Source: Chiridota heheva
Taxonomy: Eukaryota; Echinodermata; Holothuroidea; Apodida; Chiridotidae
Direction: 5' to 3'
Length of the DNA stretch: 64,000 bases
NCBI GenBank assembly: GCA_020152595.1
Contig: JAIGNY010002230.1
Coordinates: 1,020,001 to 1,084,000 of the forward strand
A model generated the notes under the pieces. That model ran no database searches and was not told where the DNA came from. It saw nothing but the letters and a program-made list of their open reading frames with translations. Made by a program: the position numbers and the translations under genes. Positions 37,301 through 64,000 of the stretch are shown in pieces; the stretch's first letter is position 1, and the number at the start of each line of letters is the position of its first letter.

Positions 37301-40300
37301 TATATATATATTTTTTCCCCCTTCTTCCCATGAATTCCCAATTTTTCTGCAGTTATAACCTCCGGAACCATAGATCTTTATAAGGTCTGAACTTATGGAT
37401 GCCAGGGTTCAACAAAAATCACCAGCCCAGGCTTCCAAAACTATTCAAATTTTTAACAGGCAATCAACTCTGTGTATATAGCATGCCTGCCCGGCAATTA
37501 AAACTCCCGTGTGTATGTGCCACTTGCAAGAACAAAAAAAAATCAAATTTGAGATGGGCAAGCAGAACTGAACTAATATTGCTTTCTGATGGGGCAAGGA
37601 CAAAATAATATAATTTTGTGGCTTGATGGGTGTGAATAGAGCCATGACTTGTACAGTCTATATAATTGAGAAGACTTTAATTGAGTTTTCAATATTTGGG
37701 CTGTTTTCATTTCACAGGTGTTAATCTTTTTACAACTATTTCTTCAATCTGAGAATAAGGTCACCATGTATTTAATTACTACTTATCTTGACAAAAACAA
37801 TTTTTCATTAAAAATAAAATATAAATGATAATAATTTTAATAAAATGATGATGATGAAAAATGAATGATTGATGATGATGATTAAGATGATGATTATTAT
37901 TATTTTATTATTATTATTATTATATTATTATTACCATGTAATTATTATTTTTAAAGTTTTTTCAAAAGTTTTCTTAAGTAAGCAACAGTATTGTAAATAA
38001 TACATTATACATTAAATTGCAAAAGAGGGAAGCCTATAAAGATGTATTTACTACTTTTTGGTATTTACTATTACACCTGTCTGTTTACTATTATACCTGT
38101 CTATTTACTATTATACCTGTCTATTTACTATTATACCTGTCTATTTAATATTATACCTGTCACAATTTGTTGGAGTAGGATTTTTGACACCTTTATTCAG
38201 AATTGTGGGAATTCTCATAACTCTGGTTCTTCTCCTCCTAAATTTTGATGACTAAGATCAATTGTGATACATGATTTAAACCAAACAGGATTTACATAAA
38301 AGACAAGACTTGTATGGTCGTTTATACATCACAAATTTGCATAGAGATAGGCGTAGCAGCGAAGCTTGAAAAATTAGAAAGTTGTAAAATCGTCAATATT
38401 ACACAGGACTTTGATGAAATACTTGGCTAATTTTATAGGTTTTGACATATTACAATATTATAGTACATCATATATTTGCTAAACATGAAATTGATGCCGG
38501 AAATTTTGAAAGACTAAAATTGTTGAAGTTTAGCCGGTTTTTTATTTTTTTGCCACTATAATGGTTTTTAGTCTACTTTTAAAGCAACTTAGCTAATGTT
38601 GCCTTATGTATGTATGTCTCCGTATACTTTAAACTAATGGCGTACTGTTTGGTGTTTATCCTCTTCCTTGTTTCAGAAGTCGCAAGGGCGATAACGACGA
38701 TGAAGATGGTGTTCCCAAAAGCGAAAGAAAGGAAGCCAGCGCAGACCTCGGGATTCAGAACCACATGGCAAGTTCAAATCCAAGGCGGTGTTGTCTTCTT
38801 CCAGCGAATCAGATTCGGATGACGACAGGCTAAAGATAGCTGTTCAAAGGTCAGTTGAAGCTTTGTCTGTTCAATATCTGTAAATATGATACAAATTTGA
38901 TTGATTTCTTATCTCTAAATCAGTTTACAACAATATATACAGAAATCATAGCAAAGTGTTTGTAAATTTTGATATGTAAACTGAGTACATGGAACCTCAA
39001 ACTTAGCTAAAAACATGTGGTGTAGTTTGCAGGGTTGGAAAAACTACTCCCCTGCGAGCAAAACAAAATTGTGGTGAGTAGAAATATTATAATATACTGT
39101 GGTACTTGCCGCACTTAGTGAAGCCTGCCAAGTTTTAAACATGTATGTGATTGGCCAGTGATTTTTTCTGTATTTTTCCAACCCTGGTAGAAACTAACTG
39201 AAAAAGTAAAGAACCAGAATTAAGTAGTCTTTTTTTAAATCTGGCTCAAAGGTAAGTCCAAGAGGAAGGTTTGAACCTGCCACTTATTGCCTGTCCATCT
39301 TGTGGTCAAGATCAAAGTGTATATGCAAGAAAATATGATTTAGGTCTAAATTATTGAAAGTGTTGGTCATTTTATGTGCATAAAATTTTGACCACTGAAT
39401 GATGATCAAGAAATATATATTTTTATTTGATCATCAGCGGAAGCGAAAGAGAAGAGGAAGAAGAAGCACCTGCTGCCACCAGTTCACCAGCAAAAAAGAA
39501 GTCCCGCATCTCCCGATTTGATTCTGACAGTGATGAAAACAGCGAGAAAGAGGAGCACGACTCGGGAACCGAGAAAAAGAGGGTCATAGATGAGTCATCG
39601 GATGATGAGAATAAACCACAAATGAAGAAACGACGGAAGCTTGTCATGAGCGACGACGATGACGATTCAGATGAAAAGTCTGGTCACGAATCTGCTGCCG
39701 CAGCTGAATCAGCGGAGGAAGGTGGGCGAGAACAGTCGGATCAAGAGGGGTCACCTAGGGGTCAGTCCGATAATGAAGGCTCTGGGAATGAAGGTGCAGC
39801 AGCCTCAGGAAGTGAAGGGGATGAGCATCAGGGGTCGGGGGATGAGGAGGTCCATCAGGGGTCGGGCGATGAGGAGGTCCATCAGGCGTCAGGGGATGAA
39901 GAGGTTCATCAGGCGTCAGGGGATGAAGAACAACAGGGGTCAGGGGACGAGGAACAACAGGGGTCTGGAGATGAAGGACAGCAGGTGTCTGGGGATGAGG
40001 AACAACAGGGGTCTGGGGATGAAGGACAACAGGGGTCTGGGGATGAAGAACAACAGGGGTCTGGTGGTGAAGAACAACAAGGGTCTGGTGGTGAAGAACA
40101 ACAGGGGTCTGGGGATGAAGAACAACGGGGGTCTGGTGGTGAAGAACAACGGGGGTCTGGGGATGAAGGTCAACAAGGGTCTGGGGATGAAGGACATCAG
40201 GGGTCTGGGGATGAGGAAGAACAGCAAGTTCACTCGGGTAGTGAAGGGGTTCGAGAGTCTGGCAGCGAGGGTCAAAGGTCAGGTGCTGAATCTGGAGCAG

Positions 40301-40389
40301 AACAATCTGATGCTGAGGGTGGTGAGCAAGATGAAGGGGGGTCAGACAAAGAAGTTGCTCAGCAGAATAGTGAAGAGGACAGTGACTGA
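15..40389 (+). CDS. CTR9: CTR9, Paf1 complex TPR scaffold, 18 exons, 5' end outside the window
   Basis: The gene encodes the RNA polymerase-associated protein CTR9. CTR9 is a nuclear TPR scaffold of the Paf1 complex (PAF1, LEO1, CDC73, RTF1, WDR61) that travels with Pol II and supports H2B ubiquitination and elongation. Exons: 15-222, 2645-2901, 4465-4572, 5925-6044, 8747-8954, 10204-10332, 14958-15141, 16693-16781, 18906-19090, 20324-20467, 21538-21630, 26929-27045, 27637-27854, 29832-29967, 34041-34181, 35758-35888, 38677-38849, 39438-40389. The first 14 exons align almost residue by residue with vertebrate CTR9 from about residue 130 (remembered alignment). The last four encode the charged coiled-coil and acidic, basic and serine-rich tail. 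Three single-base frame breaks (about 8774, 19041 and 38717) disrupt the frame. Correcting for them gives 1197 codons plus stop, longer than expected because of an expanded C-terminal repeat. Intact splice sites and strong conservation suggest a functional gene with assembly errors rather than an old pseudogene. Confidence 0.95.
257..692. repeat. 21-bp minisatellite in CTR9 intron 1
   Basis: About 20 tandem copies of a unit close to ccgtaggttgttgatcacaa, each holding a TGATCA core. The copies decay into looser agccata-type repeats up to about 780. Open reading frames crossing it on both strands are repeat artefacts (QQPTACD / INNLRLV periodicity). Confidence 0.9.
1335..1530. repeat. (CAT/ATC)n microsatellite
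   Basis: A long imperfect run of atc/cat trinucleotides with interruptions, in CTR9 intron 1. The 780-1335 flank is plain AT-rich intron in which I see nothing else. Confidence 0.9.
1955..2255. repeat. Dispersed repeat, copy 1
   Basis: This segment shares an ordered series of matches (catttcaaataacgtt-like block, ttattataataaggc/gtg, gcatatttt...gttgttgct-cctgtc) with 32305-32605. The two copies are diverged but collinear and in the same orientation, so they belong to an old interspersed repeat. No coding content is visible. Confidence 0.6.
2375..2561. mobile_element. 187-bp foldback MITE-like element
   Basis: Two roughly 49-bp arms, 2375-2423 and 2513-2561, are near-perfect inverted copies (core caatttttgcagaactgg) around an 89-bp spacer. 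No target duplication is evident because both flanks are A/T runs. It sits about 80 bp upstream of the acceptor of the next CTR9 exon. Confidence 0.7.
2645..2901 (+). CDS. CTR9: CTR9 exon 2 of window (TPRs)
   Basis: The acceptor is catcag and the donor is aaa|gtgagt. It enters at phase 1 (g+ct) and leaves at phase 0. It encodes [11 protein letters not shown]...[16 protein letters not shown] and ends [12 protein letters not shown], matching the vertebrate protein with only conservative changes. It adds two TPR units. Confidence 0.96.
3690..3775 (-). repeat. tRNA-like SINE head (minus strand)
   Basis: On the minus strand gtgtagtgtagtggtaact resembles a tRNA box A. The flanking AT-rich body (about 3080-3690) resembles the bodies of the repeats at 11868 and 20562, for example cctttcc-ttgataccagtc and a-tttgcc blocks. 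Probably a diverged member of the same composite repeat family. Confidence 0.45.
4465..4572 (+). CDS. CTR9: CTR9 exon 3 of window
   Basis: This 36-codon, phase 0-0 exon lies between cccatag and cag|gtacat. It encodes [17 protein letters not shown]...[12 protein letters not shown], the TPR helix pair that follows FFFKK in vertebrate CTR9. Confidence 0.95.
4836..4918 (-). repeat. tRNA-derived SINE head
   Basis: Read on the minus strand, gattggctctgtggttaagc (box A-like) is followed by cccaggttcaattctgggtc (box B-like), then the family sequence gtcaggtcatacc. A short poly-A lies beside it at 4921-4932. Confidence 0.6.
5027..5105 (-). repeat. tRNA-derived SINE head, second copy
   Basis: The minus strand reads ggttagttcaattggtagaa (box A-like), about 30 bp spacing, then gtgggttcaatccctaat (box B-like) and cgaatcatacc. 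The internal promoter layout and shared 3' flank with the copy at 4836 argue for a SINE rather than a working tRNA gene. No cloverleaf acceptor stem closes. Confidence 0.55.
5814..5822 (+). other. Candidate 9-nt microexon (speculative)
   Basis: Nine bases, cgcaaacaa, sit between cctttatcag and gtaagt. That is an acceptor and a perfect donor exactly 9 bp apart, in a phase 0 intron. Inclusion would add R-K-Q between FHVQ and GDYDQ without changing frame. It could be chance; transcripts would decide. Confidence 0.25.
5925..6044 (+). CDS. CTR9: CTR9 exon 4 of window (TPR)
   Basis: Forty codons, phase 0-0, acceptor ttcggcag and donor aat|gtaagt. It encodes [14 protein letters not shown]...[20 protein letters not shown], a canonical TPR. 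Confidence 0.96.
6640..7012 (+). mobile_element. LINE 3' end, Jockey/I-like, 5'-truncated
   Basis: A broken frame encodes [19 protein letters not shown], the C-terminal Cys-His motif after the RNase H or RT region of many non-LTR retrotransposons. The piece ends in ggcacaatttgacc...tgctgttaaacc and an (aaac)n tail. The same 3' end recurs at 7985, 8521, 9640, 11100 and 30020. Confidence 0.75.
7240..7384. mobile_element. Short MITE-like element
   Basis: The ends aagaatgcacccc and ggggtgcattcctt are inverted repeats about 145 bp apart. There are no coding features. Evidence is limited to the terminal inverted repeat. Confidence 0.4.
7395..7659 (+). repeat. Dispersed repeat, copy 1 of 2
   Basis: Nearly the same sequence occurs at 32017-32281 in the same orientation. 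It contains a hairpin made of cagacccgccc/aaccaggtcgggtc and ends ggagaaggacaagtcat in both copies. The high identity suggests fairly recent mobilisation or duplication. No ORF. Confidence 0.8.
7660..7735 (+). mobile_element. LINE 3' tail scrap
   Basis: gtgaactctctggcacaatttgatc...ggcggttaaacctcc followed by aaccagcc-type repeats matches the 3' terminus of the Jockey/I-like LINE family found several times in this gene. Confidence 0.5.
7985..8520 (+). mobile_element. LINE 3' end, Jockey/I-like
   Basis: Split frames encode the pre-C-terminal motif [17 protein letters not shown] and then [17 protein letters not shown], typical of the C-terminus of non-LTR retrotransposon polyproteins. The copy ends cgttgtcgtggtgccgttaa and (aaac)n. 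It is 5'-truncated and frameshifted, so it is dead. Confidence 0.85.
8521..8640 (+). mobile_element. Tandem duplicate of the LINE 3' terminus
   Basis: The last ~110 bp of the preceding LINE (ctctagaatgatctgacc...cgtggtgctgtaaag...aaacaaac) is repeated directly behind it. Confidence 0.7.
8747..8954 (+). CDS. CTR9: CTR9 exon 5 of window, with a +1 frame break
   Basis: The acceptor is cttcccag and the donor is cag|gtgggg. The exon starts AAQCFEKVL in the frame set by exon 4 but continues [15 protein letters not shown]...[19 protein letters not shown] one frame over. One extra base lies within 8771-8774 (cttc where ctc would keep V-L-K-V). The length, 208 nt, is one more than a multiple of three while both borders are phase 0. 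Confidence 0.93.
9038..9234 (-). repeat. tRNA-headed SINE, same family as the 23160-25245 unit
   Basis: The minus strand has tactgtggatcagtagtcaa (box A-like) and accaggttcggttcccgtc (box B-like), then ttgtgtccttaagcaagat and actggcgtcctatcc, all shared with 23160-23330. It starts within 100 bp of the CTR9 exon 5 donor. Confidence 0.7.
9640..10085 (+). mobile_element. LINE 3' end, Jockey/I-like
   Basis: A broken frame encodes [21 protein letters not shown], and the copy ends ctgtcgcggtgccattaaac. It is closely related to the copy at 30020. The 9250-9640 flank shows nothing I recognise. Confidence 0.75.
10204..10332 (+). CDS. CTR9: CTR9 exon 6 of window
   Basis: Forty-three codons, phase 0-0, between ctccaatgcag and aag|gtaggc. 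It encodes [20 protein letters not shown] then [14 protein letters not shown], with the strictly conserved VPPEILNNV stretch. Confidence 0.96.
10405..10864 (-). mobile_element. tRNA-headed SINE, long copy
   Basis: On the minus strand it starts agataactcagttggcagag (box A), then gagttcaagcctcggtcag (box B), followed by a body containing ggggacgttaagctgtcg and gagaagagaagcgtgaaaac. The 3' end gcgccataaaaatt...attattac resembles a LINE tail. The body is shared with 28146-28425. Confidence 0.75.
11100..11402 (+). mobile_element. LINE 3' end fragment
   Basis: It matches the last ~300 bp of the copy at 7985 (ctcatttgctgagttctt...gtcgtggtgccgttaag) and ends in (aaac)n. It includes no Cys-His motif. 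Confidence 0.7.
11868..12889. mobile_element. piggyBac-like nonautonomous element (1.0 kb), TTAA-flanked
   Basis: The left end is TTAA then cccttaactctacca and the right end is tggtaaagtaaggg then TTAA. TTAA target sites with CCC-starting inverted repeats are the piggyBac signature. No transposase frame survives. Near 12430-12515 it carries a tRNA-like module (tgtagtgtagtggat...caggttcaagtctc). A truncated inverted copy lies at 20562-21085. Confidence 0.7.
12989..13569. mobile_element. TTAA-flanked MITE
   Basis: Both ends have TTAA. The inner arms aaaggacataaagtctgaca and gtatcagactttatgtttcc are inverted copies. It starts 99 bp after the preceding TTAA element. No ORF of interest. Confidence 0.55.
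13570..14957. other. Intron, no recognised element
   Basis: AT-rich intronic sequence. The only structure I see is a perfect 11-bp-arm hairpin at about 14677-14704 (accaaggatgt / acatccttggt, 6-nt loop). Confidence 0.5.
14958..15141 (+). CDS. CTR9: CTR9 exon 7 of window
   Basis: The acceptor is cccgcag. The exon encodes [18 protein letters not shown] then [20 protein letters not shown] and ends HPNYVD plus one base (phase 1) at gtgagt. The last ~13 exonic bases and the donor form the first unit of a 65-bp tandem array that continues for 1.2 kb into the intron. Confidence 0.95.
15128..16325 (+). repeat. 65-bp minisatellite built from the exon 7 / intron junction
   Basis: About 18 copies of a unit running from aactatgtagactgtgagt through gatttgaaagaactagtg and acatctaggtcaacag. 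Copy 1 overlaps the coding end of exon 7. Most copies keep gtagact|gtgagt, so the authentic donor sequence is repeated. Some copies have short internal duplications (tgtgagtcagatagac). Units contain stop codons, so use of a downstream copy as donor would truncate CTR9. Confidence 0.95.
16340..16529 (-). repeat. tRNA-headed SINE
   Basis: The minus strand has agagtggctcagtggttac (box A) and tttgaatcccggccgaac (box B). It then has an equivalent of ggcatccagtccaccatgg that lines up with the ggcgtcctatc part of the copies at 9038 and 23160. Confidence 0.65.
16693..16781 (+). CDS. CTR9: CTR9 exon 8 of window (TPR)
   Basis: The acceptor is atcttgtag and the donor is cag|gtatgc, entering at phase 1 and leaving at phase 0. 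With the last base of exon 7 it encodes [18 protein letters not shown] then [12 protein letters not shown], a full TPR. Confidence 0.95.
16964..17145 (+). pseudogene. THAP zinc-finger domain remnant
   Basis: One frame reads [17 protein letters not shown], then [17 protein letters not shown], and finally CREHFIL, with a single in-frame TAG at 17105. Spacing of CCAVGC to C-x2-H fits the C2CH THAP domain (DNA-binding, common in P-element and Harbinger-type transposases and host proteins). A gtatgt donor follows directly, so it resembles a first exon of a DNA transposon or a decayed THAP gene. Confidence 0.7.
17150..18280. other. Intron, no recognised element
   Basis: No conserved frame, no terminal repeats and no tandem repeat of note were seen in this stretch. 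Confidence 0.4.
18287..18569 (+). repeat. 50-bp minisatellite in CTR9 intron 8
   Basis: Six copies of a unit tgtcatttaccactggtata + agaatgctgacaaacaattg + actgtcgttt. The first copy is shorter. Each unit starts tttgtc and contains gacaaac, so it can fold on itself. Confidence 0.9.
18906..19090 (+). CDS. CTR9: CTR9 exon 9 of window, with a -1 frame break
   Basis: It encodes [20 protein letters not shown] then [15 protein letters not shown]...TYSLVAL, and then the frame shifts to [16 protein letters not shown]. One G is missing at 19041 (ctcgcaacg where ctcggcaac would give L-G-N). The length, 185 nt, is one short of 186 with both ends phase 0. The donor is aag|gtttgt. Confidence 0.94.
19556..20120. 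mobile_element. 565-bp TTAA foldback MITE, copy A
   Basis: Both ends are TTAA with aggattagttcag / aaactaatcct inverted termini. The inner halves are also inverted (aaatcagactagttgtg versus cacaactagtctgattt), so nearly the whole element folds into a hairpin. Other copies are at 46272 and 55935. Confidence 0.8.
20324..20467 (+). CDS. CTR9: CTR9 exon 10 of window (TPR)
   Basis: Forty-eight codons, phase 0-0, ctcttcag acceptor and caa|gtaagt donor. It encodes [20 protein letters not shown] then [20 protein letters not shown], one of the best conserved TPR stretches. Confidence 0.96.
20562..21088 (-). mobile_element. piggyBac-like nonautonomous element, truncated
   Basis: It starts TTAA cccttactcctacca, like the 11868 element, and its reverse complement follows 12340-12889 closely, including the tRNA-like module (caggttcaagtctcatcg on the minus strand). 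The other end is lost at the 39-bp minisatellite. Confidence 0.7.
21095..21478. repeat. 39-bp minisatellite with GGGAAAATTCCC cores
   Basis: About ten copies of gggaaaattcccccagcagt + tgattggttgggtaacaaa lie just upstream of the exon 11 acceptor. Several units hold gggaaaattccc, a Rel/NF-kappaB-like sequence, and a tgattggtt CCAAT-type box. Regulatory use is only a possibility. Confidence 0.9.
21538..21630 (+). CDS. CTR9: CTR9 exon 11 of window (TPR)
   Basis: Thirty-one codons, phase 0-0, ctaccag acceptor and atg|gtgagt donor. It encodes [20 protein letters not shown] then [11 protein letters not shown]. Confidence 0.96.
21982..22377. mobile_element. hAT-like MITE, 396 bp
   Basis: Ends cacaggttcttgattaa and (reverse) cagcgattcttacaatc are related. 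Both lead into a ccacaggcca / tggcccacg block as in Charlie-type hAT ends. Flanking 8-mers ccctaggg and acttaggg match at 6 of 8, consistent with an aged 8-bp target duplication. Confidence 0.5.
22650..23165 (-). mobile_element. CR1-like LINE, 3' terminal fragment
   Basis: The minus strand encodes [20 protein letters not shown], then [12 protein letters not shown] and [15 protein letters not shown], the extreme C-terminus of CR1-type reverse transcriptase, followed by a 3' UTR. It is the same family as 46085-48850. It abuts the SINE-derived minisatellite. Confidence 0.8.
23160..25245 (-). repeat. SINE with an expanded 36-bp minisatellite, split by a hAT-like MITE
   Basis: Read on the minus strand, the right end has gtgcagtggcttagtagtta (tRNA box A). 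Then 24 copies of a 36-bp unit follow (aaggtaccgggttcgagga + gtcatgctcctatgcgg), then the SINE body ending actggcgtcctatctt near 23160. The copies lie at 23295-23854 (15) and 24903-25215 (9). The unit covers the region between box A and box B of the 9038 copy. A block of six units is duplicated (23419 and 23635, 216 bp apart). Confidence 0.85.
23855..24902. mobile_element. hAT-like nonautonomous transposon (1048 bp) inserted in the minisatellite
   Basis: The termini tagagctgtgaccgtttag and ctaaacgttcacagctcta are inverted repeats. An exact 8-bp direct repeat, ccttccgc, flanks both ends (23847-23854 and 24903-24910) and reconstitutes the interrupted 36-bp unit. TAGAG fits the hAT terminal consensus YARNG. 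Subterminal gtgtacacg / tttactaaa motifs repeat near both ends. No transposase frame is present. Confidence 0.85.
25514..26256. mobile_element. hAT-like nonautonomous transposon, 743 bp
   Basis: The termini tagtgctgttgatttggg and ttgtcaacagcacta are inverted and start TAGTG (YARNG). Flanking 8-mers gatttaag and gatttcag differ at one base. Subterminal gcgattaatcg-type motifs appear near both ends. No ORF. Confidence 0.75.
26361..26892 (+). mobile_element. Internally deleted piggyBac transposon
   Basis: The ends are TTAA cacatttgagtcccag and gtgagactcaatgtg TTAA. Inside (about 26655-26865) the plus strand encodes an acidic stretch, [20 protein letters not shown], and after a frame break [15 protein letters not shown], resembling the N-terminal part of piggyBac transposases. 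The catalytic domain is absent. Confidence 0.6.
26929..27045 (+). CDS. CTR9: CTR9 exon 12 of window
   Basis: Thirty-nine codons, phase 0-0, atttgcag acceptor and aag|gtaagt donor. It encodes [20 protein letters not shown] then [19 protein letters not shown]. It lies 37 bp after the piggyBac remnant. Confidence 0.95.
27046..27636. other. Intron, no recognised element
   Basis: Short AT-rich intron with no repeat or element that I recognise. Confidence 0.5.
27637..27854 (+). CDS. CTR9: CTR9 exon 13 of window (last TPRs)
   Basis: The acceptor is ttccacag; it leaves at phase 2 (ag|gtttga). It encodes [20 protein letters not shown] then [20 protein letters not shown] and [12 protein letters not shown], the end of the TPR array. 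Confidence 0.96.
28146..28425 (+). mobile_element. tRNA-headed SINE with a LINE-type tail
   Basis: It begins caggtagctcagttggtag (box A), shares ggggacgttaagctgtcgg and gagaagagaagcgtgaaaac with the copy at 10405, and ends gggcgctatataaaataatt plus att repeats. Relative to 10405 the part between box A and the ggggacg block is deleted, removing box B. Confidence 0.75.
28797..29256 (+). mobile_element. THAP-carrying MITE, copy 1 (460 bp)
   Basis: The terminal inverted repeats are aattgacctctctgagt and actcagagaggtcaatt. The interior encodes [16 protein letters not shown] and, after frame breaks, KCHEWIKAY...PHKCLHV, which resembles a THAP-type finger start and the KCxxWIxACGRP segment. A second copy with the same ends is at 33487. 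Confidence 0.7.
29257..29765 (+). mobile_element. Tx1/L1-type LINE 3' end
   Basis: The frame at 29277-29510 encodes [20 protein letters not shown] then FYEDIRKVF and [14 protein letters not shown], the C-terminal Cys-His segment of Tx1-like LINE ORF2. The 3' UTR ends tgaatgaaataaacaat with an (aat)n tail at 29745-29763. Confidence 0.7.
29832..29967 (+). CDS. CTR9: CTR9 exon 14 of window
   Basis: The acceptor is tttttcacag and the donor is ggg|gtaaga, entering at phase 2. It encodes [20 protein letters not shown] then [20 protein letters not shown], the start of the charged coiled-coil after the TPRs. Confidence 0.95.
30020..30560 (+). mobile_element. LINE 3' end, Jockey/I-like
   Basis: The continuous frame encodes [18 protein letters not shown] then [19 protein letters not shown]. 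It ends ctgtcgtggtgccgttaaac + atcaacaaa. It is the best preserved copy of this family in the window. Confidence 0.85.
30561..32016. other. Intron, no recognised element
   Basis: AT-rich, with only chance short frames. I see nothing supported here. Confidence 0.4.
32017..32281 (+). repeat. Dispersed repeat, copy 2 of 2
   Basis: Near-identical to 7395-7659, same orientation, with the caggtcgggtc hairpin and a ggagaaggacaagtcat end. Confidence 0.8.
32305..32605. repeat. Dispersed repeat, copy 2
   Basis: Collinear with 1955-2255 (ccattcaaataacgtt and ttattataataaggcc blocks), but diverged. The 32606-33486 flank has no feature I recognise. Confidence 0.55.
33487..33933 (+). mobile_element. THAP-carrying MITE, copy 2 (447 bp)
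   Basis: The ends are aattaacctctcctgag and actcagagaggtcaatt. The interior encodes [18 protein letters not shown] then [18 protein letters not shown], a clearer THAP-type fragment than in copy 1. No transposase follows. Confidence 0.7.
34041..34181 (+). CDS. CTR9: CTR9 exon 15 of window
   Basis: Forty-seven codons, phase 0-0, tttctttcag acceptor and agg|gtttgt donor. It encodes [20 protein letters not shown] then [20 protein letters not shown] and GGGKKGR, matching the coiled-coil and Gly/Lys-rich linker of CTR9. Confidence 0.9.
34330..35540. repeat. 37-bp minisatellite, about 1.2 kb
   Basis: About 30 imperfect units of the type ccctttactgctattactga + cccatatgccaaggaag. The central units (34740-34960) are nearly identical and the edges are degenerate and C-rich. 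It fills most of the intron between CTR9 exons 15 and 16. Confidence 0.9.
35758..35888 (+). CDS. CTR9: CTR9 exon 16 of window
   Basis: The acceptor is ctctaccag and the donor ag|gtacgt leaves phase 2. It encodes [20 protein letters not shown] then acidic/glycine residues and [17 protein letters not shown], a nuclear-localisation-like basic cluster of the CTR9 tail. Confidence 0.88.
36345..37133 (+). mobile_element. L2-type LINE, 3' end
   Basis: Two overlapping frames encode [48 protein letters not shown] and then [20 protein letters not shown], the hallmark C-terminus of L2/CR1-clade reverse transcriptases. The 3' UTR ends cggcgccctgagcatc...gcgcggtataaatc and (att)n. It is 5'-truncated with one frame break. 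Confidence 0.9.
37855..37940. repeat. (ATG)n/(ATT)n microsatellite
   Basis: gatgatgatg and attattatt tracts, impure. The rest of 37134-38040 is AT-rich intron without recognised elements. Confidence 0.8.
38049..38162. repeat. 20-bp tandem repeat
   Basis: Six copies of actattatacctgtctattt, with small differences in the first and last units. Confidence 0.9.
38677..38849 (+). CDS. CTR9: CTR9 exon 17 of window, with a -1 frame break
   Basis: The acceptor is cttgtttcag and it leaves at phase 2 (ag|gtcagt). It starts [15 protein letters not shown], then must change frame to continue [19 protein letters not shown] then [19 protein letters not shown], which resembles the KGKIKSKAI and SSDDSSDEDKLKIA part of human CTR9. 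One A appears missing from the run at 38714-38717. In the given frame the exon reaches a stop before its end. Confidence 0.8.
39438..40389 (+). CDS. CTR9: CTR9 terminal exon, acidic repeat tail and stop
   Basis: The acceptor is gatcatcag. It encodes an acidic Ser/Glu/Asp tail starting [20 protein letters not shown], includes [20 protein letters not shown], and ends [10 protein letters not shown] with TGA at 40387. The middle contains 16 near-identical 8-residue units. CK2-like S-D/E-x-E sites are abundant. The exon is longer than the corresponding human tail. Confidence 0.93.
39829..40218 (+). repeat. CTR9: Coding 24-bp minisatellite (GSGDEEQQ)n
   Basis: Sixteen in-frame units of 24 bp encode GSGDEEQQ variants ([32 protein letters not shown]). 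Units keep the reading frame, so length variation between alleles would be tolerated. Confidence 0.93.
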
Positions 40390-43520: not shown

Positions 43521-46080
43521 TAGCTACGCCACTGTTTAAGTCACCAGCAAAAACTCGAAGTTATACAAGGGTTTTTTTCTTGCAAAGGGGGACAAGTTGT
43601 TGTCTCGTCCGTTGAGGAGAGAAGAAAATGCCTAACATTGCGGTGTTGGAGGTTGGATGGGATAACCAAGGCATGAATTGTAATAATCATTTATAATCTA
43701 ACGTTAGTGTTAATCCTTTAGGCCCAGGTCCTAGTAGGAACTCCCAACAGTATGGTCATGGGAGAAATAGACTTAAAGCCTATGCCTACGTTACTAGGGC
43801 CTTAAGCATTTCCTAGGAAAGAAGGGCCGGGCCCAAATTTACTAGCGGACCATTTTACTATGAGGGGGGAACAAATTTACTAGATGGCTACGGCTTAATT
43901 GTCTGGGGGGCCCAAATTTCCAAGGAAATAAGGGCTTGGGGCTAAAATGTTACACCGGCATTGTCCATATTACTCAGCTGCTCAGTGGATATCGGTGAGT
44001 CAGTACTGCTTTTATAATATGTAAGTGATGCCAATTTCATTTTCAAATTGCGCCAACCATCATCAGGGACAATTCCAGTTCACAGGCAATCCTACCATGA
44101 ACAGCAAAACGAAGAGTATTTGAAAACAACATGTTGTTTACTATAGTGAGTCATGAACTTGTGAGCAAATCAATCGACCACTTAAAACCCATACGGGCTT
44201 TCATATTCTTCTCTATTAAGCATTTGAGATTCGGAAATATTCAACTAAGAGGTAAGTTAATGCACACTGATTCTTATTCACGAAAATATATTGCTTTTCA
44301 CAACTTTGAACTTGTATGTGCAAAAATTCATTGTTAGGAAGCTACAATCTTGGACAAAACTGTTGGGACACTTACCGGAAAGTTTGCATGTTATTTTAAA
44401 TGTTCATGTACAGCTTTTATTTTCGACGTCACCCCCCTCCCCCATTCCCCTCCCCCCGTCCCCCCTTCTCAATTATCAACATTTTCCACTCATTTCACCA
44501 ACATTGAATGGGGATGACCCAACGAGTTTTGTCTTAGATTGTAGATAAGTAAAATGCCATAGAAACACACTCGAAATGACAACCACATAAGTACTTCCCT
44601 CCTTATTGCAGAATTGATAAATAAGTAGGGTTTCTACGCTGGAGGGATCACTTAGTAGGTCAATGGGAAAATCAGCAATTGTTCACTTTTTTGTGAGTTT
44701 AAAAAGTTTTAGAAAATATAATAATTTCTACAAATGTGATTAAATCCAATGCCTAACACCTCAACCTAGACCAAAAACAGTCATTACCCATTTCCATCCC
44801 TTCAAAAAATATTTTGACCCCAAATCGGCCAAAATGGTGGCCATTTTGAAGGATTTCTACAATACTTATAGACCTCACTATATTGCGTTGTTTTTAATTA
44901 TTTCTGATGATATTATGGAGCCAACCTACGTAATAATTAATACCATCAAGAAGTCATGCAATCCCTCTCACAATAACTTTGAAATTGGAGGCAAATTATT
45001 GCAGAAAATGTTGGAATTTCTTATTGAATCCGATGATAAACGTCCTATAATTTTTGGTTCCGATATAACAACAGGAACCTCATATGCAGTAGGCTGCCAA
45101 ATTATATGTATATGTGTATGTATGTAAAGCTTTGCTTTTAAACATGGTATCTCGGGAATTGAACATTAGAGGCATGTCAAATTTAAAACATTGATTAATC
45201 ATGACTCAAAAATGGTCCCTATTGTTTTTGATGTCAACATTATACATATTAATGCATGAGTAGATGGGGCTTAGTGCAAACAATCTTGAACTTTTCAAAT
45301 CTTTACAAATGCGTGCCAGTTTTGCTTCTTATGCAGTTATGTGACATGATTATGTCGTCAAGTAGTGTGCACATGCTTTTGTTGTTAAAATATCATCTTA
45401 ATTAGTTTTGAAATTAAAAAATATGCATCATGACTCCACCCTCAACCTATAGATTTATATTAAAATATTCTCTTTGATACTGTCGATAATTATTACCCTT
45501 TCATAAAACCTTTGTTTATTGTCTGTACTAGCAATACTGTTCTCCCAGCACAAACACTAGATGAATTAATAGACGAAGAAAAGACTGCCACCTTTGAATT
45601 GCATTTGAAGTGCGTTCCTTTTCAATGCTAAACAATCGCAACAATTGCAAATGATGTTTTACGGGTTGTCATCATTAGTGACTTAAAAGCTTAAAACAGC
45701 CAAATACTCAGGTATAGTGGTCATATCTTGACATTAACAAGTTAGATGTCCCTGAATTCCCGGCGGGTCCTTATCCATCAGTTCTTCGCAAGTTGATTAT
45801 CTCTATATAATCTTAACTATTGAAGACTAGATGTAAAATACCCAATATATCTATCTACATTTTAAAACTTGATATAAAAACTTGTCAGTTTAAAACACAG
45901 ATATTTATAGTGTATTAGCACCTACCAATCAAAGATTCATTCCCACAACTATAGGGGAGGGAAAAATTGACATCAAAGAGTCATTCGCACAACTGGGGCT
46001 CAAAGTTGCTGTAAACTTACAGGATTTACCAAGACAGCCATATTCACTCATTTCTTGGCTTCTGCGGCCAAGGGTGAAAA
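43521..46080. other. Intergenic, no recognised gene
   Basis: Mixed AT-rich sequence. A C-rich run lies at 44427-44468. A 97-codon open frame at 44834-45127 has no recognisable motif and begins in an aaatggtggccatttt-type palindrome, so I do not call it. Confidence 0.4.
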
Positions 46081-46084
46081 AACC

Positions 46085-48850
46085 TTCCAGCCCATATTAT
46101 ACCCTTTAAGATCCTTATTGGTGCTGCAAGAGTCGTATCTTATTTTAAAATGCAAGAGAAATTTTGCGTCCACAACATAATCAGGCAGAGCATTCCAATT
46201 GTAAACAACTCACTGGCTGAAGAAATGCTTACGTATGGCCAAACGGATGTTTGACTTTAAAAAAAAAAAGTCTTTATGTATTCTATCATAATTTGTCCTG
46301 CAATTTTGTGGCTTAAAAACCATGGGATATGTTAAGAAAGTAGTTCAATTGAATCTAGGAAGGGTATTTATAATATACCACCTGAAGAAAGTTTGAGGGA
46401 AAATGATTTAAATAGTAAACAAATTAAATAAACTTTCTTTGAAATACATACAGATTTTAAGGAATCTGAGGCTGTGACATCACAACTATTCTGATTTCAG
46501 TCGTTTCTACAAAAATGATACCAAACTTTAAACTTGAATATCTCCTTAACGGAATAAGATTTTACAATGCTTTCTTCACCATTTTGTTTCTTTTGAAGTC
46601 CTCTTTCATATAAGAATAACATGCTTGACCACTGAACTAATCCTTTAAACGTATGTCCTTTGGTGATAGTGCCTGCTTAAAGCTTGAAACATTTGCAAAA
46701 ATTCACATGATCCAAAGCTTAAAAAACTTGAATACCTGTATTATATCGCCTCTCAACCTCCTCTCCTCTAAAGTTGACAGATTAAATAACCCGAGGCGCT
46801 CAGTGTAACTTAAAGAACATAATCCCCAAATCAGCTTTGTTGCTCTCTTTTGAACACCTTCCAATAAATTAGTATCCCTTTTCAAATATGGATTTGATAC
46901 CAGAAGTGAACACAATGTTCCAATTAAGGACGAACCAAGGATTTATACAATTCAAGGACAATGTCTTGAGAAAAATGCGAAAAAAGTTTCTTGATCATCC
47001 CCAAAACAGAATTTGCTCTTTGTCACCGCTAAAGCACAATGCACTGAGCTACTTAAAGAACAATGAACAGTAACACCCAAGTCCTTCTCCTTGTCAACCT
47101 CAAGCAGCTCGACACCACCCATGTAGTAATGTACATTCATGTTGGCATTTCCGAGATGTAAAACTTGACACTTATCTACATTAAATAGCATCTGCCAATC
47201 CACTGACCATTGAAACAATCTGGAAAGATCAGTTTGAAGCTGATCAGCTTGATCAAGAGACACAATTGGAGCACAAAGTTTAGTATCATCTGCAAACTTT
47301 ATAAGAGTTGAAATAACTTCATTGTCAATGTCAGTAATATACACCAAAGATAGAATAGGTCCCAACACTGAGCCTTGTGGCACTCCACTAAGTACTTCCT
47401 CCCAATCTGACTGACTGTTATTTACAACAACTCTCTGTCTCCTTCCATGCAACCATCTTTTAGTCCAACGATGAACATTTCCCGCTACGCCAATAGCTTC
47501 CAGTTTTAACAGCAGCCTCTTGTGTGGTACTTCGTCAAAAGCTTTGCCAAAGTCTAAATACACATTATCCACCGGAGAACCCTCTTCAACAAGACCTGCA
47601 ACTGTTTCGAAAAATTCCAATAAATTTGTATGATTAGGGCGACTTTTCGAAAACCCATGCTGTGTATCTTTTAACAAATTGATATTCGACTCCATCACCT
47701 TTCCCACCGCTAATGTCAAACTGACTGGTCTATAGCTCGCACACACAAACTTTGGCCCTTTCTTTAACAAGCGTGTCACATTAGATTCTCTCTAACTCTC
47801 AGGAACAATGCTGGTGTCAAACGATACTTTAAATATACAGGAAAGAGGTACACTCAACTCCTTACAACATTTATTAAAGATCCAAGGTTGCAGTTGATCT
47901 GGTTCTGGGGTTTTATTACTTCTCAATCGTTCCAGCTTATTACAAACCACCTCCTCACTAAAACTTGTCTCAAACAACCTTTGACCACAAGTGCCGTTGA
48001 AAATATATAATGGCTGCGGTATATCCCTCTCATCCTCAATTGTAAACACAGATGACAAAAATGTTTTTAAGATATACGCAATCTCCTTATCCTCAACAAT
48101 AAGCACATCACTATCATTCTTTAAAAGACCAATTTGTTCTTTGTACACTGCTTCCCCCTTACATACAAGCAGAATGATTTCACATCAGTTTTAATGTAAT
48201 CAGCCAACTTCTGTTCAAAGATCTTTTTGGCCTTGCAAACTTCCTTACACTCTTTTAAAGCATTCTTGTACGTCAAATAATCCTCACAATCAGCTGTACT
48301 CTATATTTCGTTTATGCTTGATCTGTTGATATTTATGTTTCATTGCTTTTCCTGTTACTTTGGTCATCCGTGGAGGCTTACGACATTGCCACTTCGTACG
48401 CTTGGGAATACACTCTTGCGCTGCAGTATCAATTTCTGACTTTAACTTACTGAGAAGCACATCAGGACTCCCTAGCTGAAGTATATCATACCAGTTAAGA
48501 GGTTAACATTTTATAAACTATTCCTCATCATGTCAAAGTTTCTTTAGAATATGCAAAAGTAAAGGTTTTGTCCTCATTTAAATATGTTTTTGCACATAAA
48601 ACCCATTCAATAATGTTATGATCATTGTTATCAAAGTGTTCTTTGATGCAAACGCTATGGACCATATTAATCATCGATGAAAACAAATCCAAAGCTGCCT
48701 CACCTCGAGTTGGTATGTATACATGTTGATACAAATACGAATCTAAAACAGTGTCCAGAAACTCCTTATCTTTTTATCTGATTATCCGCTGCGAAAGTAT
48801 CCCAGTTAATTGAACCTTATATGACTAGGCTATAATATCCAACATTTCTA
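46085..48850 (-). mobile_element. CR1-like LINE, 5'-truncated, split by a MITE
   Basis: Order on the minus strand: endonuclease end (FNWDTFAADNQ, then LYQHVYIPTRGEAALDL, then FDNNDHNIIEW), linker (KRTKWQCRKPPRMTKV), then the RT domain: YRPVSLT, DTQHGFSKSR, VYLDFGKAFDEVPHKRLL, GVPQGSVLGPI, catalytic FADD, KDLGVTV. The C-terminus follows: RRATKL near 46840, RRLRGDIIQVFKF, and after the MITE, YNWNALPDYVVDAKFLLHFK near 46190. Several frame breaks make it inactive. A CR1-clade origin is inferred from these motifs. Confidence 0.92.
46272..46648. mobile_element. TTAA foldback MITE, copy B, inside the CR1 LINE
   Basis: It matches the right two-thirds of the 19556 element and ends gaactaatcct TTAA. 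The left third is replaced by an A-run. LINE C-terminal coding resumes on both sides, so the MITE inserted after the LINE. Confidence 0.8.
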
Positions 48851-58560: not shown

Positions 58561-59196
58561 AAACAGTTCTTCCCCATGTAATCAATGGTCTCTTCCTCTT
58601 TTTTCCATCTGGTGTCTAAGTCAGAGCTATTCTTACTATCGTTGTCGGATTCTCTTCGGAGTACATGCCCAATCAGTTTCCAAGTTTGCTCTTTATCGGT
58701 CGCTTCATTTTGGTTCTTTAGAGCTTGCCCACTGGATACCTCAGTTCTCTGGTCATCTTATTTTGAGTATTCTCCTCAAGCACGTTCTGTGGAAGATGTC
58801 TATTCTTTCCGTGTCTGCTATTGTCATCCTCCATGTTTTTGACCCTTATAGTAATACTGCTGTTGCATTGTTGTTAAGATCCTCAGTTTGGTCCTACTAT
58901 AGTAGGATTCCGAGCTCTGTATCTTTCATAACTGAGCAAAAGCACCACTTGCTGTTCTTAGCGGTCTGGTTATGTCCTCCCGGGATCATCCATGATTATT
59001 TAGCGTCGCTCTAATTATGTGAATGACGTCACACCTTTAATGATTTGATTGTTAACTTCGACTGGCTCATTAGTTCTTCGTTTAAATCTCCACACTTTAG
59101 GGTTTTTTTAGTATCATTTATTGTGTATAACCTATTCCTTTATAAGCCAAATTAAATGATATAAGTTTTCAAACTGTCCTTTTCATTTTCGTTTAG
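58561..59196 (+). other. Upstream of the Ig exon, no exon recognised
   Basis: The Ig exon starts mid-codon, so at least one upstream exon (signal peptide or another Ig domain) is expected. I could not find a convincing one here. The pyrimidine-rich tract before 59197 serves as its acceptor. Confidence 0.4.
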
Positions 59197-59520
59197 ATCT
59201 GATATTAGTTGCCAAATCTCAACTCGTCTGTCAGAAATACTTGTTTATAGAACAAAACATCACAACTTCAACAAATTGCAGTTACACAGATGCCAGTAAG
59301 ATTCAAGAAGCTCATTGGTACAACAACGAAGAAATTGTAGCTAGCTTTCCGTCTGATGGTAGTAACAGGAAAGGATATTCTATGAATGAGAAAATCAACC
59401 TGGTGATACATAATCCCAGCAAATACGATGTAGGGAATTATTCTATTATAGTGGTTCCTTTCCAGAACTCATCTTTTAGACCCACTCAGGCAGTGGTTGA
59501 TGTTCAGTTTATCATATATG
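59197..59520 (+). CDS. Ig-like domain exon
   Basis: The phase 1-1 exon, typical of Ig domains, follows cattttcgtttag and ends g|gtaaga. It encodes LVCQKYLFIEQNITTSTNCS, then EAHWYNNEEIVASFPSDG and INLVIHNPSKYDVGNYSI. The B-strand Cys (TNCSY), core Trp (AHWY) and D-x-G-x-Y motif are present. The usual F-strand Cys after D-x-G-x-Y is replaced (NYSII), so the canonical disulfide is missing. Four N-glycosylation sequons (NIT, NCS, NYS, NSS) fit an extracellular location. Confidence 0.8.
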
Positions 59521-62500
59521 GTAAGAAATTTTAAAAACTGTAAAATAAACTAATCTGTAGAAGATTATTTTTGAATGAAATCATGTTGCAATAATTGTCA
59601 GCTTTGGTATTTCAGTGTTATAGTGAGAAATTTTAGCCATTTTTGACGTTAAAAAGTTTCTTTTATGGGTTCAACAGATTCAGTTTAAACATTGGGGTTG
59701 TGTTTGGTGGTATACATATAAATGTTTAAAGATGAACTTGGTTTAACGGAAAACTTGATAAGGAATTGGCTAGTTTTGTTGCGTGTCTGTATACATGAAC
59801 AAGTAGATCCAAAACAGCAATGGTAATGGTAATGAATAGTAATATATCCTGATTTGAAATTGAGCAGAACAAAGGGATAAAGATTGTTTAGATAACGCTA
59901 TGCTCATGATGCCCCCCCACGGGTGTAGGAACTTGGTGACACAAAGCTTCCCTACTTTTCCGGAAAATAAAAAAGGGCCCTTTTTTCGAAAGCGTCCTAC
60001 GCCCCTGTGCCGCACTGGTTAAATTTCAAATTACGATTGTTTTGTCCACGGCACATTCTACAGCAATATGATACATAGCTGCAAAACGTTAGACACATAA
60101 ATATTTAAATAGCATTAAGTATTTATCGATTTCTTCTCGTCGAATGTAAGATCAATTTCCTTTCGAAATTAGTGATACTATTACGACAACAGCTTATAAG
60201 AATAATCGTATAAGTCTAAACAGCTAAATTGGCAGAAATCTTTCAGTAATTTTGATGAACTTTATTTTTTATGAAGTATGAGGAACCACTTCTTGCGTAG
60301 TAAAGACTTTTTGCAATGGACCTCTAACAGTCCAAGCTTTAAAGTTTAACGCCCATTGCAAGAATTTTTGAAGTATGTTACTATTTTGGTATTCAAAGCT
60401 GTAAACAAAAGAAAACAGTCGCTTTTTACATTTACGTAAAGTTACAACTGTATGAAATACATAATTTGAGTTTTTAATTATTCAATAAGTTTATTACCAA
60501 TTCTCAATCATACATGCATCAATCATCAATCAATTATACATGATGCTCTTTGGAATATTTTCATACGTTTTTCTTTAAAGCTTCTACTCATGCAATTCCT
60601 ACCGATTCAACAGATAGTGAGGAAGCAACTCCTGCTGTATTAGCAAACGGCTTTGTATGTGACGCCCTTTATTCTAGCTCCACTATGTCTAATTCTCGGA
60701 GCGTTTGTGTTCTTCATGTGTAGAAGAATGAGAAGAAAGGATGGTAAGCAGTAATGTAATTCAGTCTTTACTTTTTAGAATATACAAAAACTCACTTTTT
60801 CATCTAAATTTTCAGCTAAACATGTCATCGTAAGAAATTGATACAAGATCGATATAGATATTTGTATTGTCATGCACGCACATCATGAGTTTACCATTTT
60901 TCATTATATAGATATACCCAAAGAGAGCCCTGTTGCAGAAAGGGAGGTTTGTTACAGTTAATTTTTACATTCGTTAGAATTCTAGGGAACGAGAGGGTAT
61001 ATAAAGACCTATGCAAATTTTGCCTTTTACTATACCTGGGGTAGCCTGACTATCATCATTTCTTATGAAAGTATAGTAGCACATAATCATTAACATTTAC
61101 GTTAGACTGGTAAGCTAAGATATCGAAAGTGTAGAACATAACCAAAACTGTATTTCTATTTCACATGATCCATATAGAGAATCCTGGTCACCCGTATGAG
61201 ACTGAGATTGAAAACCTTTTTCTGTGTAACGTGTAAACCAATCAGTTTTAAATACAACATATTTCTCTCGCATGTATCTCTCTTCTTGTGTGTAATGTTT
61301 ATATATGGTATTGTTTTTCTTACCCATATCCATAAAGTATCCAATTCGATTATTCATAAATATAAATAGGAAAATACAATATAAATTATGTTATTGCAGA
61401 AATGTCTAAACGGTCACCGTCAAGATGAAAACCGTGCCGTGTCAGATGATGTAAGTAATTTATTAACATCTATGTTTATACATCTATTTCTTCTTGCTTG
61501 AATGTCAGCTGTCTTTTAACTGTATGATTCTAAAAACATAACATTATTTGCATAATACGTTTATTACTTTCTACAGCTAGCTGAGAAAAACTGAAATTTG
61601 TTCAGATGTCAGATAATCAGATGTCTGTTTTGTTTCATAATTGGAATAGTTATGATGCTAGCTAGTGTGTATGTGTTCATTGTATACAACTTTGAATTTC
61701 ATTAATATGTGTAGTGGGCGAGGCCTAATATGATTTTGCAGAAAAGAGCTTGTAAACACGATATCTCAACAACTGGTCAACTTCAGTCACTGGTTATGAT
61801 GGTGTTCATCATCATCATTATTTTGTTGTTTTGTTTATAAGCACATAGGCGTATGAAGCCGAGAGTATTCAGCCTCAACGTTTTGTTTGCAACGAATTTT
61901 TGTTTGCAATCTTCAATGCTAATTTTTTTAGCAATGAAACGCTATAATTTTCTTAAGAAAATGTTATATTCATATAGCTGTATAGCGGCTATTTTCATGG
62001 ACCCCTAAGAGGTATACCTCAACCCTCTCTATTTCCATATAAAATTAATTTTGTCTGTCATCAAATAATCAACATGGCCGCATTTTATGTCTAAAACTTT
62101 AAACTCCCAAACATTATTGTACTCTAAGTAAACAGATGGCACCGTTACATTACCTACATCTTTAAGCTGATATTAATCTAAGTGAACAGATAGCACCGTT
62201 ACATTACCTACATATTTAAGCTGATATTAATCTATTAACACCGTTACATTACCTACATGTTTAAGCTGATATTAATCTAAGTAAACAGATAACACCGTTA
62301 CATTACCTACATGTTTAAGCTGATATTAATCTAAGTAAACAGATAACACCGTTACATTACCTACATGTTTAAGCTGATATCAATCGAAAAAGTAACCTGC
62401 AACTTGTTTTCCAAATTTTAGGTTCATATGCCTTGCCGGGACTTTTATGTGCCGTCTGTATATCAGGATCTGCTTTACGATAAGCTACCGTTAGAACTGC

Positions 62501-64000
62501 GGATCTGTTTCGTAGGCCTAAATGGTGCGGGTAAAAGTACAGTTATAACAACATTGTCAGACAGATATGATGAAACGGCTACAAAGAATCATTCAGTTTC
62601 TGTATATTCGAATGTTGCCGTTTGTTCCTCAACTATTATCAATGGTAAAAGATTTCATTTGTATGACACAGTCGGGTATACAGAAGGAGACGAGCAAAAA
62701 AAGATTTTTCGCAAACAAATCAGCGATCTTATTCGAGTTGGAATCCATGTATTCGTTTTTGTTCAGAAAAGCGTTCGAATGTGTTACCTCAAAGAGGACC
62801 TTAACAAGCTAAAGGTAAAATTCAAACTTTCACGTTAGAGATGAATAAGAGATAATTTGTGGAGGACAATTCTTATTTATTTTTGCATGCACACTGCAAC
62901 TATTCGTACTTTTCTGTATTTTATGAGTTACTGAGTCGGAGATCAGGAGAGGGGCTAATATCATTGTATTGGGTGGGGGAGTCGGAGATCAGGAGAGGGG
63001 CTAATATCATTGTATTGGATGGGGGAGTCGAAGATCAGGAGAGGGGCTAATATCATTGTGTTGGATGGGGAAGTCGGAGATCAGGAGAGGGGCTAATATT
63101 ATTGTATTGGATGGGGGAGTCGGAGATCAGGAGAGGGGCTAATATCATTGTATTGGATGGGGGAGTCGGAGATCAGGAGAGGGGCTAATATCATTGTATT
63201 GGATGGGGGAGTCGGAGATCAGGAGAGGGGCTAATATCATTGTATTGGATGGGGGAGTCGTTCACAAACTTGCAAACAAATATTTGACCAACTTTTGAAA
63301 TAAAATTCCGAAAAAAATTCAAAACTGCAAAAGCAAAAATAACTGGTTCTTAAAGTTTAATTCATATCAAATATCTTGAATCGTGTTCATTCATATGTGC
63401 ATTTAGCTTAAGTTTTCACTCATAATTTTCGATAATAAAAGAGGTTACATGATATTGCGCGTTTTACTAAGAATAAAACCCTTAGAGATCATTAATATTT
63501 CGTAGTATTATTCATTATGAAGAACACTTGTTTCTACGGAAAAAAAAAATATTCATTCACTTCTTATGTGTGTTGTTGTTTGTTGTAATTGAATTAGGCA
63601 TATTATGTTCCTCTCACTGTAAATGTGTATTGGGGACACAGTAAATATAAAAAATCCTCTTGGTCGAAATTGGCTGCCATACATCAAATTACTTTTCTTG
63701 AGGATTGATCAACTATAGATTTAAACACAGTACATGCCAGTCCATCCATTTTCACGTAGATCTTTAGAACATATACAACTATTTTCGTGTCTTTCTATTA
63801 CTTTACAGGCATTGCTTGGTGATAATTTTACTCAGTTTGCCATGTTAATTATTACCCATGCAGATTACGTCAGTAATGAGAGCACCTTGGATGAACTGAT
63901 GGCAAAAGACCCTGATTTTAAAAGCCGCTGCGCAGATTTTGGTCAGAGGGTAATGCGAATTGACAATAGCGAAAGTGTTAAATCTGACAGTTCCATGCGA
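59197..64000 (+). CDS. Ig domain - transmembrane - AIG1/GIMAP GTPase gene, partial
   Basis: Six exons: 59197-59520 (Ig-like, phase 1-1), 60581-60743 (stem and transmembrane helix, 1-1), 60912-60946 (1-0), 61400-61450 (0-0), 62422-62814 (GTPase G1-G3, 0-0), 63809-64000 (G4 region, open). All borders are GT/AG and every phase joins correctly. The predicted protein has an extracellular Ig-like domain, a single membrane pass with an RRMRRK stop-transfer, about 30 linker residues, then a TRAFAC-class GTPase resembling AIG1/GIMAP proteins. Family knowledge: GIMAPs are immune-associated GTPases on internal membranes and usually lack Ig domains. The likely role is a surface receptor coupling recognition to a GTPase switch; that is inference. 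A one-base frame break lies in the transmembrane exon. 5' and 3' exons are missing. Alternative: two genes chained by chance, which the phases make less likely. Confidence 0.75.
60581..60743 (+). CDS. Stem and transmembrane exon, with a frame break
   Basis: After ttctttaaag the frame set by the Ig exon reads ASTHAIPTDSTDSEEATPAV, a Ser/Thr-rich stem. The helix VTPFILAPLCLILGAFVFF followed by MCRRMRRKD is one frame over, implying one extra base between about 60644 and 60665. Length supports this: 163 nt, where a phase 1-1 exon should be a multiple of three. The donor is g|gtaagc. Confidence 0.7.
60912..60946 (+). CDS. Cytoplasmic linker exon 1
   Basis: A 35-nt exon between cattatatag and gag|gtttgt encodes DIPKESPVAERE and changes phase from 1 to 0, which is required to join the following phase 0 exons. 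Small cytoplasmic exons like this are often alternatively spliced. Confidence 0.6.
61400..61450 (+). CDS. Cytoplasmic linker exon 2
   Basis: A 17-codon, phase 0-0 exon, acceptor ttattgcag and donor gat|gtaagt, encoding KCLNGHRQDENRAVSDD. It has good splice consensus but no domain. Confidence 0.6.
62123..62384. repeat. 54-bp tandem repeat upstream of the GTPase exon
   Basis: About five copies of ctaagtaaacagataacacc + gttacattacctacatgttt + aagctgatattaat. One unit is shortened. The array ends about 40 bp before the acceptor at 62421. Confidence 0.92.
62422..62814 (+). CDS. AIG1/GIMAP-type GTPase exon, G1-G3
   Basis: 131 codons, phase 0-0, attttag acceptor and aag|gtaaaa donor. It encodes LRICFVGLNGAGKSTVITTL, with the P-loop GLNGAGKST at 62515-62541, and DTVGYTEGDEQKK as G3 at 62665. 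It then has DLIRVGIHVFVFVQKSVR, which resembles the hydrophobic beta strand and partner helix of AIG1 proteins. An ATG lies at codon 3, so a separate shorter transcript starting here cannot be excluded, although the upstream AG acceptor and open phase 0 frame favour an internal exon. Confidence 0.85.
62928..63262. repeat. 46-bp minisatellite within the GTPase intron
   Basis: Seven nearly identical units of gagtcggagatcaggagagg + ggctaatatcattgtattgg + atgggg. It lies between the exons for G3 and G4. The rest of the intron up to 63808 shows nothing else. Confidence 0.95.
63809..64000 (+). CDS. AIG1/GIMAP-type GTPase exon, G4 region, open at window end
   Basis: The acceptor is attactttacag, phase 0. 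It encodes ALLGDNFTQFAMLIITHADY, then LDELMAKDPDFKSRCADFG and RVMRIDNSES. THAD is in the place of the base-recognising G4 motif (T/N-K/x-x-D) and RVMRIDN sits where AIG1 proteins have their R-x-x-x-F/I-D/N-N strand. No donor is seen before the window ends. Confidence 0.85.

Follow-up and report, generated by a model that had tools for sequence, protein, structure and literature searches.

We describe six exons on the forward strand that span position 59197 to the edge of the window (the whole stretch of 64,000 nucleotides that was analysed) and whose reading frames run in compatible phases from an Ig-like exon, through a hydrophobic stretch with a basic tail, to a GTPase homologous to the AIG1/GIMAP family. 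Our favoured reading, to which we give a probability of about 0.6, is that they form one gene and that, spliced into one mRNA, they would encode a type I Ig receptor whose cytoplasmic part is a GIMAP-like GTPase.

Exon layout and the GTPase half

The initial annotation had placed the Ig, transmembrane and GTPase parts on one transcript unit of six exons with phases 1-1, 1-1, 1-0, 0-0, 0-0 and 0-. The phases are confirmed provided that the membrane exon starts at 60678, and the order of Ig, helix, basic stop-transfer, linker and AIG1 on one strand in compatible frames stands as well, but the joining of the two halves is something that we infer. Judged by matrices that follow a consensus and were not trained on the source species, the splice sites are good to mediocre, with acceptors at percentiles of 98.6 (Ig exon), 99.7 (last GTPase exon) and 82.7 (second linker exon) among all AG in the window and five donors at 92.7 to 99.3 percent of all GT. 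The gene is cut by the end of the window at 64000 and its 3' end lies outside.

By profile homology, the assignment of the GTPase to AIG1 is secure. Its first exon (62422..62814, +, phase 0-0) carries the P-loop GLNGAGKST and DTVG, and its second (63809..64000, +, phase 0, cut by the window end) carries THAD, so that GLNGAGKST, DTVGY and THAD are present as first reported. Joined, the two exons match Pfam AIG1 (PF04548) with an E-value of 1.4e-12 and 47.8 bits against a gathering cut-off of 27, the match covering positions 1-165 of the 212 in the profile, with the domain truncated by the window end, so that any coiled coil in its C-terminal part would lie past position 64000. AIG1 leads the 22 Pfam families found at E up to 1, followed by MMR_HSR1 (E 8.7e-9), and NACHT is absent from that list; the NCBIfam matches to the GTPase are all below cut-off. 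Three PDB entries matched at E up to 0.1, namely GIMAP7 (0.0031), GIMAP4 (0.045) and an ABC protein (0.06), and although these GIMAP matches are weak in score, both proteins (PDB 3lxx and 3zjc, as GIMAP4 and GIMAP7) align along nearly the entire GTPase piece. The G1, G3, G4 and G5 regions are in register with GIMAP7 and GIMAP4, and the box between G3 and G4 has diverged (GIHVFVFVQKSVRM vs GPHAIVLVLQLGRY). The likeness to the vertebrate proteins lies in the G domain motifs, and neither GIMAP4 nor GIMAP7 is known to have an Ig ectodomain. Tandem arrays lie in both introns that flank the first GTPase exon, one at 62123-62385 (54-nt unit, 5.0 copies) before the exon and one at 62933-63260 (46-nt unit, 7.1 copies) after it.

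The Ig-like and membrane exons

The Ig-like exon (59197..59520, +, 324 nt, phase 1-1, 107 whole codons) shows a C-W-DxGxY pattern in which the Cys, the Trp and DVGNY stand at the usual spacing and the second core Cys is absent, the Cys of strand F being replaced by Ile (YDVGNYSI). Some Ig domains do without the disulphide. The pattern of C, 10-16 residues, W, 30-60 residues and DxGxY (or DxAxY), which was defined after the exon had been seen, has one match in the six frames of the window and none in 60 randomised sequences of 20.5 kb. The exon also has the top score among the seven phase 1-1 rows listed for 46.0-60.56 kb, the second row being a shorter version of it, and it contains four N-glycosylation sequons (shuffle p 0.048). 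Its open length is no evidence, since stop-free frames this long arise about once per randomised 20.5 kb (on average 0.97 of at least 124 codons and 0.5 of at least 138 codons).

Profile searches place the exon below the thresholds in use. Pfam Ig_3 gave 15.5 bits against a cut-off of 30 (E 0.025), a score that is weak taken alone because in the same search an unrelated family matched one of nine other open reading frames at E 0.0012; none of the nine matched an Ig family. The best match in a PDB search was JAM-A at a non-significant E of 0.069, NCBIfam returned zero matches for the exon, and a single-sequence fold model reached a mean pLDDT of 34.5, too poor for a structure search. Motif, size and phase agree with the Ig-like ectodomain of the initial annotation, but the profile score falls short and the second core Cys is missing; the putative Ig assignment owes more to motif and exon structure than to profile score, by which it is weak.

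The membrane exon (60678..60743, +, phase 1-1; translation PLCLILGAFVFFMCRRMRRKD) reads PLCLILGAFVFFMC followed by RRMRRKD. Under three settings it is the sole phase 1-1 exon on either strand of the window with a hydrophobic stretch and then basic residues, and no such exon was found in 500 random segments of 1.39 kb, the criteria having been fixed after the exon had been seen. When the Ig and membrane exons are joined, the best 19-residue window is FIIYAPLCLILGAFVFFMC, with a mean hydropathy of 2.50. By hydropathy, then, the proposed transmembrane helix with a basic stop-transfer holds, with a helix that is short in one reading: in the frame-compatible version it comprises no more than 14 to 15 hydrophobic residues if the terminal Ig residues FIIY are left out. 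Upstream of the acceptor at 60678 the sequence VTPFIL lies in the same frame as the helix, as if coding.

The upstream border of this exon allows other readings. A rival acceptor at 60581 is equal in score (1.41 vs 1.36 for 60678), and the stretch that it would add, 60581..60677 on the forward strand, encodes a possible stalk sequence in the Ig frame (STHAIPTDSTDSEEATPAVLANGF). The resulting 163-nt version is one base out of the helix frame and ends at a stop codon, 60721-60723; a mini-exon of 36 nt at 60581-60616 (phase 1-1), followed by a 61-nt intron, is also in frame. Conceivably the two equal acceptors set the form of the product, with 60678 giving the membrane receptor and 60581 giving the stalk, the stop at 60721-60723 and a secreted Ig protein without the GTPase, an arrangement that we hold to be very unlikely. 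Alternatively, the 163-nt version, with its stalk and a helix of 21 residues, would be the true membrane exon and the one-base break would reflect a mutation, an allelic difference or an error of assembly, in which case the copy as given is decayed or mis-assembled and makes no receptor. In favour of this, the stretch that follows 60581, an acceptor no worse than 60678, contains both a stalk-like sequence read in the Ig frame and VTPFILAPLCLILGAFVFFMC read in the helix frame. Against it, a fully open path exists through 60678, and the Ig, linker and GTPase exons, all five, are open in the given phases. We consider decay or mis-assembly quite improbable.

The joint between the two halves and the 5' end

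Two small exons would link the membrane exon to the GTPase, the first at 60912..60946 (+, phase 1-0; (D)IPKESPVAERE), with the weak donor GTTTGT, and the second at 61400..61450 (+, phase 0-0; KCLNGHRQDENRAVSDD). These linkers are the weakest joint of the model. In the interval from the membrane donor to the GTPase acceptor, the thresholds were passed by a single one-exon chain (linker 1 alone, in phase) and a single two-exon chain (linker 1 plus linker 2), and random segments gave a one-exon chain scoring at least 3 in 18 of 100 cases and a two-exon chain as good as linkers 1 and 2 in 12 of 100. The two linker exons first proposed are the sole two-exon chain to pass, but one that chance equals in roughly an eighth of random segments.

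It is against this joint that a reading as two neighbouring genes has to be weighed, with an Ig or Ig-TM protein encoded wholly upstream of 62422 and a separate GIMAP-like GTPase starting from an ATG at 62428. That the linkers are not clearly above chance fits such a separation, as does the ATG itself, which is in frame in the first GTPase exon, six bases past the acceptor and 23 residues ahead of where the Pfam match begins, and could serve as the start of a stand-alone GTPase. Its start context is poor by reading, however (C at -3, C at +4), and both linkers are in phase with the acceptor at 62422, which stands at percentile 94.2 among the AG dinucleotides of the window. A poly-A site after the linkers, named beforehand as evidence against a joined gene, was sought by hexamer only: the interval 60744-62421, from the membrane exon to the GTPase exon, contains neither AATAAA nor ATTAAA, which counts against two genes, yet AATAAA occurs at 59544 and 59966, inside the intron after the Ig exon, which counts in their favour and would allow a short Ig-only transcript. 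On balance we find the separation into two genes doubtful and prefer the single receptor gene.

An exon for a signal peptide was not found with a strict donor in 46.0-59.15 kb or with a moderate donor in 44.0-59.15 kb, and the loosest scan gave nine rows, in none of which a strong core coincided with a strong donor. Two of the candidates were set aside, one at 58796-58901 that has the strongest core but a poor donor and one at 48646-48712 that has the best donor but a weak core. With seven exon queries, tblastn against the window returned each exon itself and chance-level matches only, with no second copy; any cluster of paralogues further downstream would fall beyond the window. Protein searches gave no match for the whole joined reading at E up to 0.01 (2791 word-sharing candidates), for its GTPase region at E up to 0.1 (636 candidates) or for the GTPase alone at E up to 1 (95 candidates), results of little weight given that the animal share of the one database used is uncertain. 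Neither the Rfam scan nor the tRNA scan returned a match.

Elsewhere in the window, exons of a homologue of CTR9, of the Paf1 complex, lie at 2563-40386 (+), with TPR matches at 2563-2967 and 8649-9128 and with a match of 20135-20488 to PDB CTR9 homolog chains at E 4.7e-22. An open frame at 39406-40386 (+), acidic and with repeats, has no Pfam match and may be the C terminus of this homologue. Together with the intron-rich layout, the CTR9 homologue points to an animal genome. Coding-looking open frames follow at 44744-46106 (+), those at 44744-45124 and 45894-46106 being free of Pfam matches, and a retroelement reverse transcriptase lies on the opposite strand at 46955-47791 (RVT_1, E 6.9e-25).

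Known systems of similar design and a proposed mechanism

In the parts of the literature available, the nearest published design is AjNLRC4 of Apostichopus japonicus, described as an Ig-TM-NACHT receptor that binds microbes through its Ig part, oligomerises, and interacts through its inner part with actin for phagocytosis (PMC8699970). With the candidate it shares an extracellular Ig, a membrane helix and an intracellular P-loop NTPase; it differs in having NACHT instead of AIG1, an Ig-like plus an Ig domain and two helices, and its location and function were tested (PMC8699970). AjNLR-new of A. japonicus likewise combines Ig, membrane helices and a P-loop NTPase within a single polypeptide, but the NTPase is again NACHT and the topology is reported as reversed, the NACHT part lying outside and the Ig part inside (PMC13133943), so that by analogy, too, a type I topology is not certain. 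One paper mentions NLRs that carry an Ig V-set domain from the holothuroid Chiridota heheva (PMC8913654).

On the AIG1 side, the AIG/GIMAP proteins of Biomphalaria glabrata have many partner domains, and some of them have membrane helices, type I dispositions among them, but a signal peptide is reported in none and the terms 'immunoglobulin' and 'Ig domain' are absent from the main text of that paper (PMC7053062). Lancelet GIMAPs also carry AIG1 in multidomain invertebrate proteins, but their named partners are CARD and HINT, and the main text contains no instance of 'immunoglobulin', 'Ig-like' or 'transmembrane' (PMC12373286). Among the open-access papers listed by the literature searches, in the parts available, no Ig-AIG1 protein was found, subscription papers and annotated animal proteomes being outside the scope of the search, and the combination may already be annotated somewhere. 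The initial annotation had called the architecture unusual, but a sea cucumber has the same design with another P-loop NTPase (PMC8699970). The domain combination is likely real and possibly undescribed, and the kind of design is already known.

In the proposed receptor, a diverged Ig-like domain would lie outside the cell, a single membrane helix would be closed by RRMRRK, and a hydrophilic linker of ~29 residues would separate the helix from a GIMAP-like (AIG1) GTPase on the inner side. A ligand or partner bound by the Ig domain would bring receptors together. The G domains of GIMAP2 and GIMAP7 dimerise or oligomerise in the GTP state, and because of this, clustering of the receptors would drive or read out a nucleotide-dependent assembly of the GTPase at the membrane. 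From clustering onward these steps are modelled on the vertebrate GIMAPs and on AjNLRC4. A receptor with a GTPase switch, possibly for immunity, had been suggested from the outset; the domain order present in the sequence agrees with such a receptor, but its immune function is an extrapolation from the families concerned, by which a role in invertebrate immunity is probable.

If the reading given here is true, the input to a GIMAP that carries an ectodomain of its own would be defined, and the question of what invertebrate GIMAPs sense would become testable. Alongside the Ig-TM-NACHT receptors known from sea cucumbers, such a protein would suggest that the grafting of Ig domains onto P-loop NTPases by way of a membrane helix is a recurrent route to immune receptors in invertebrates.
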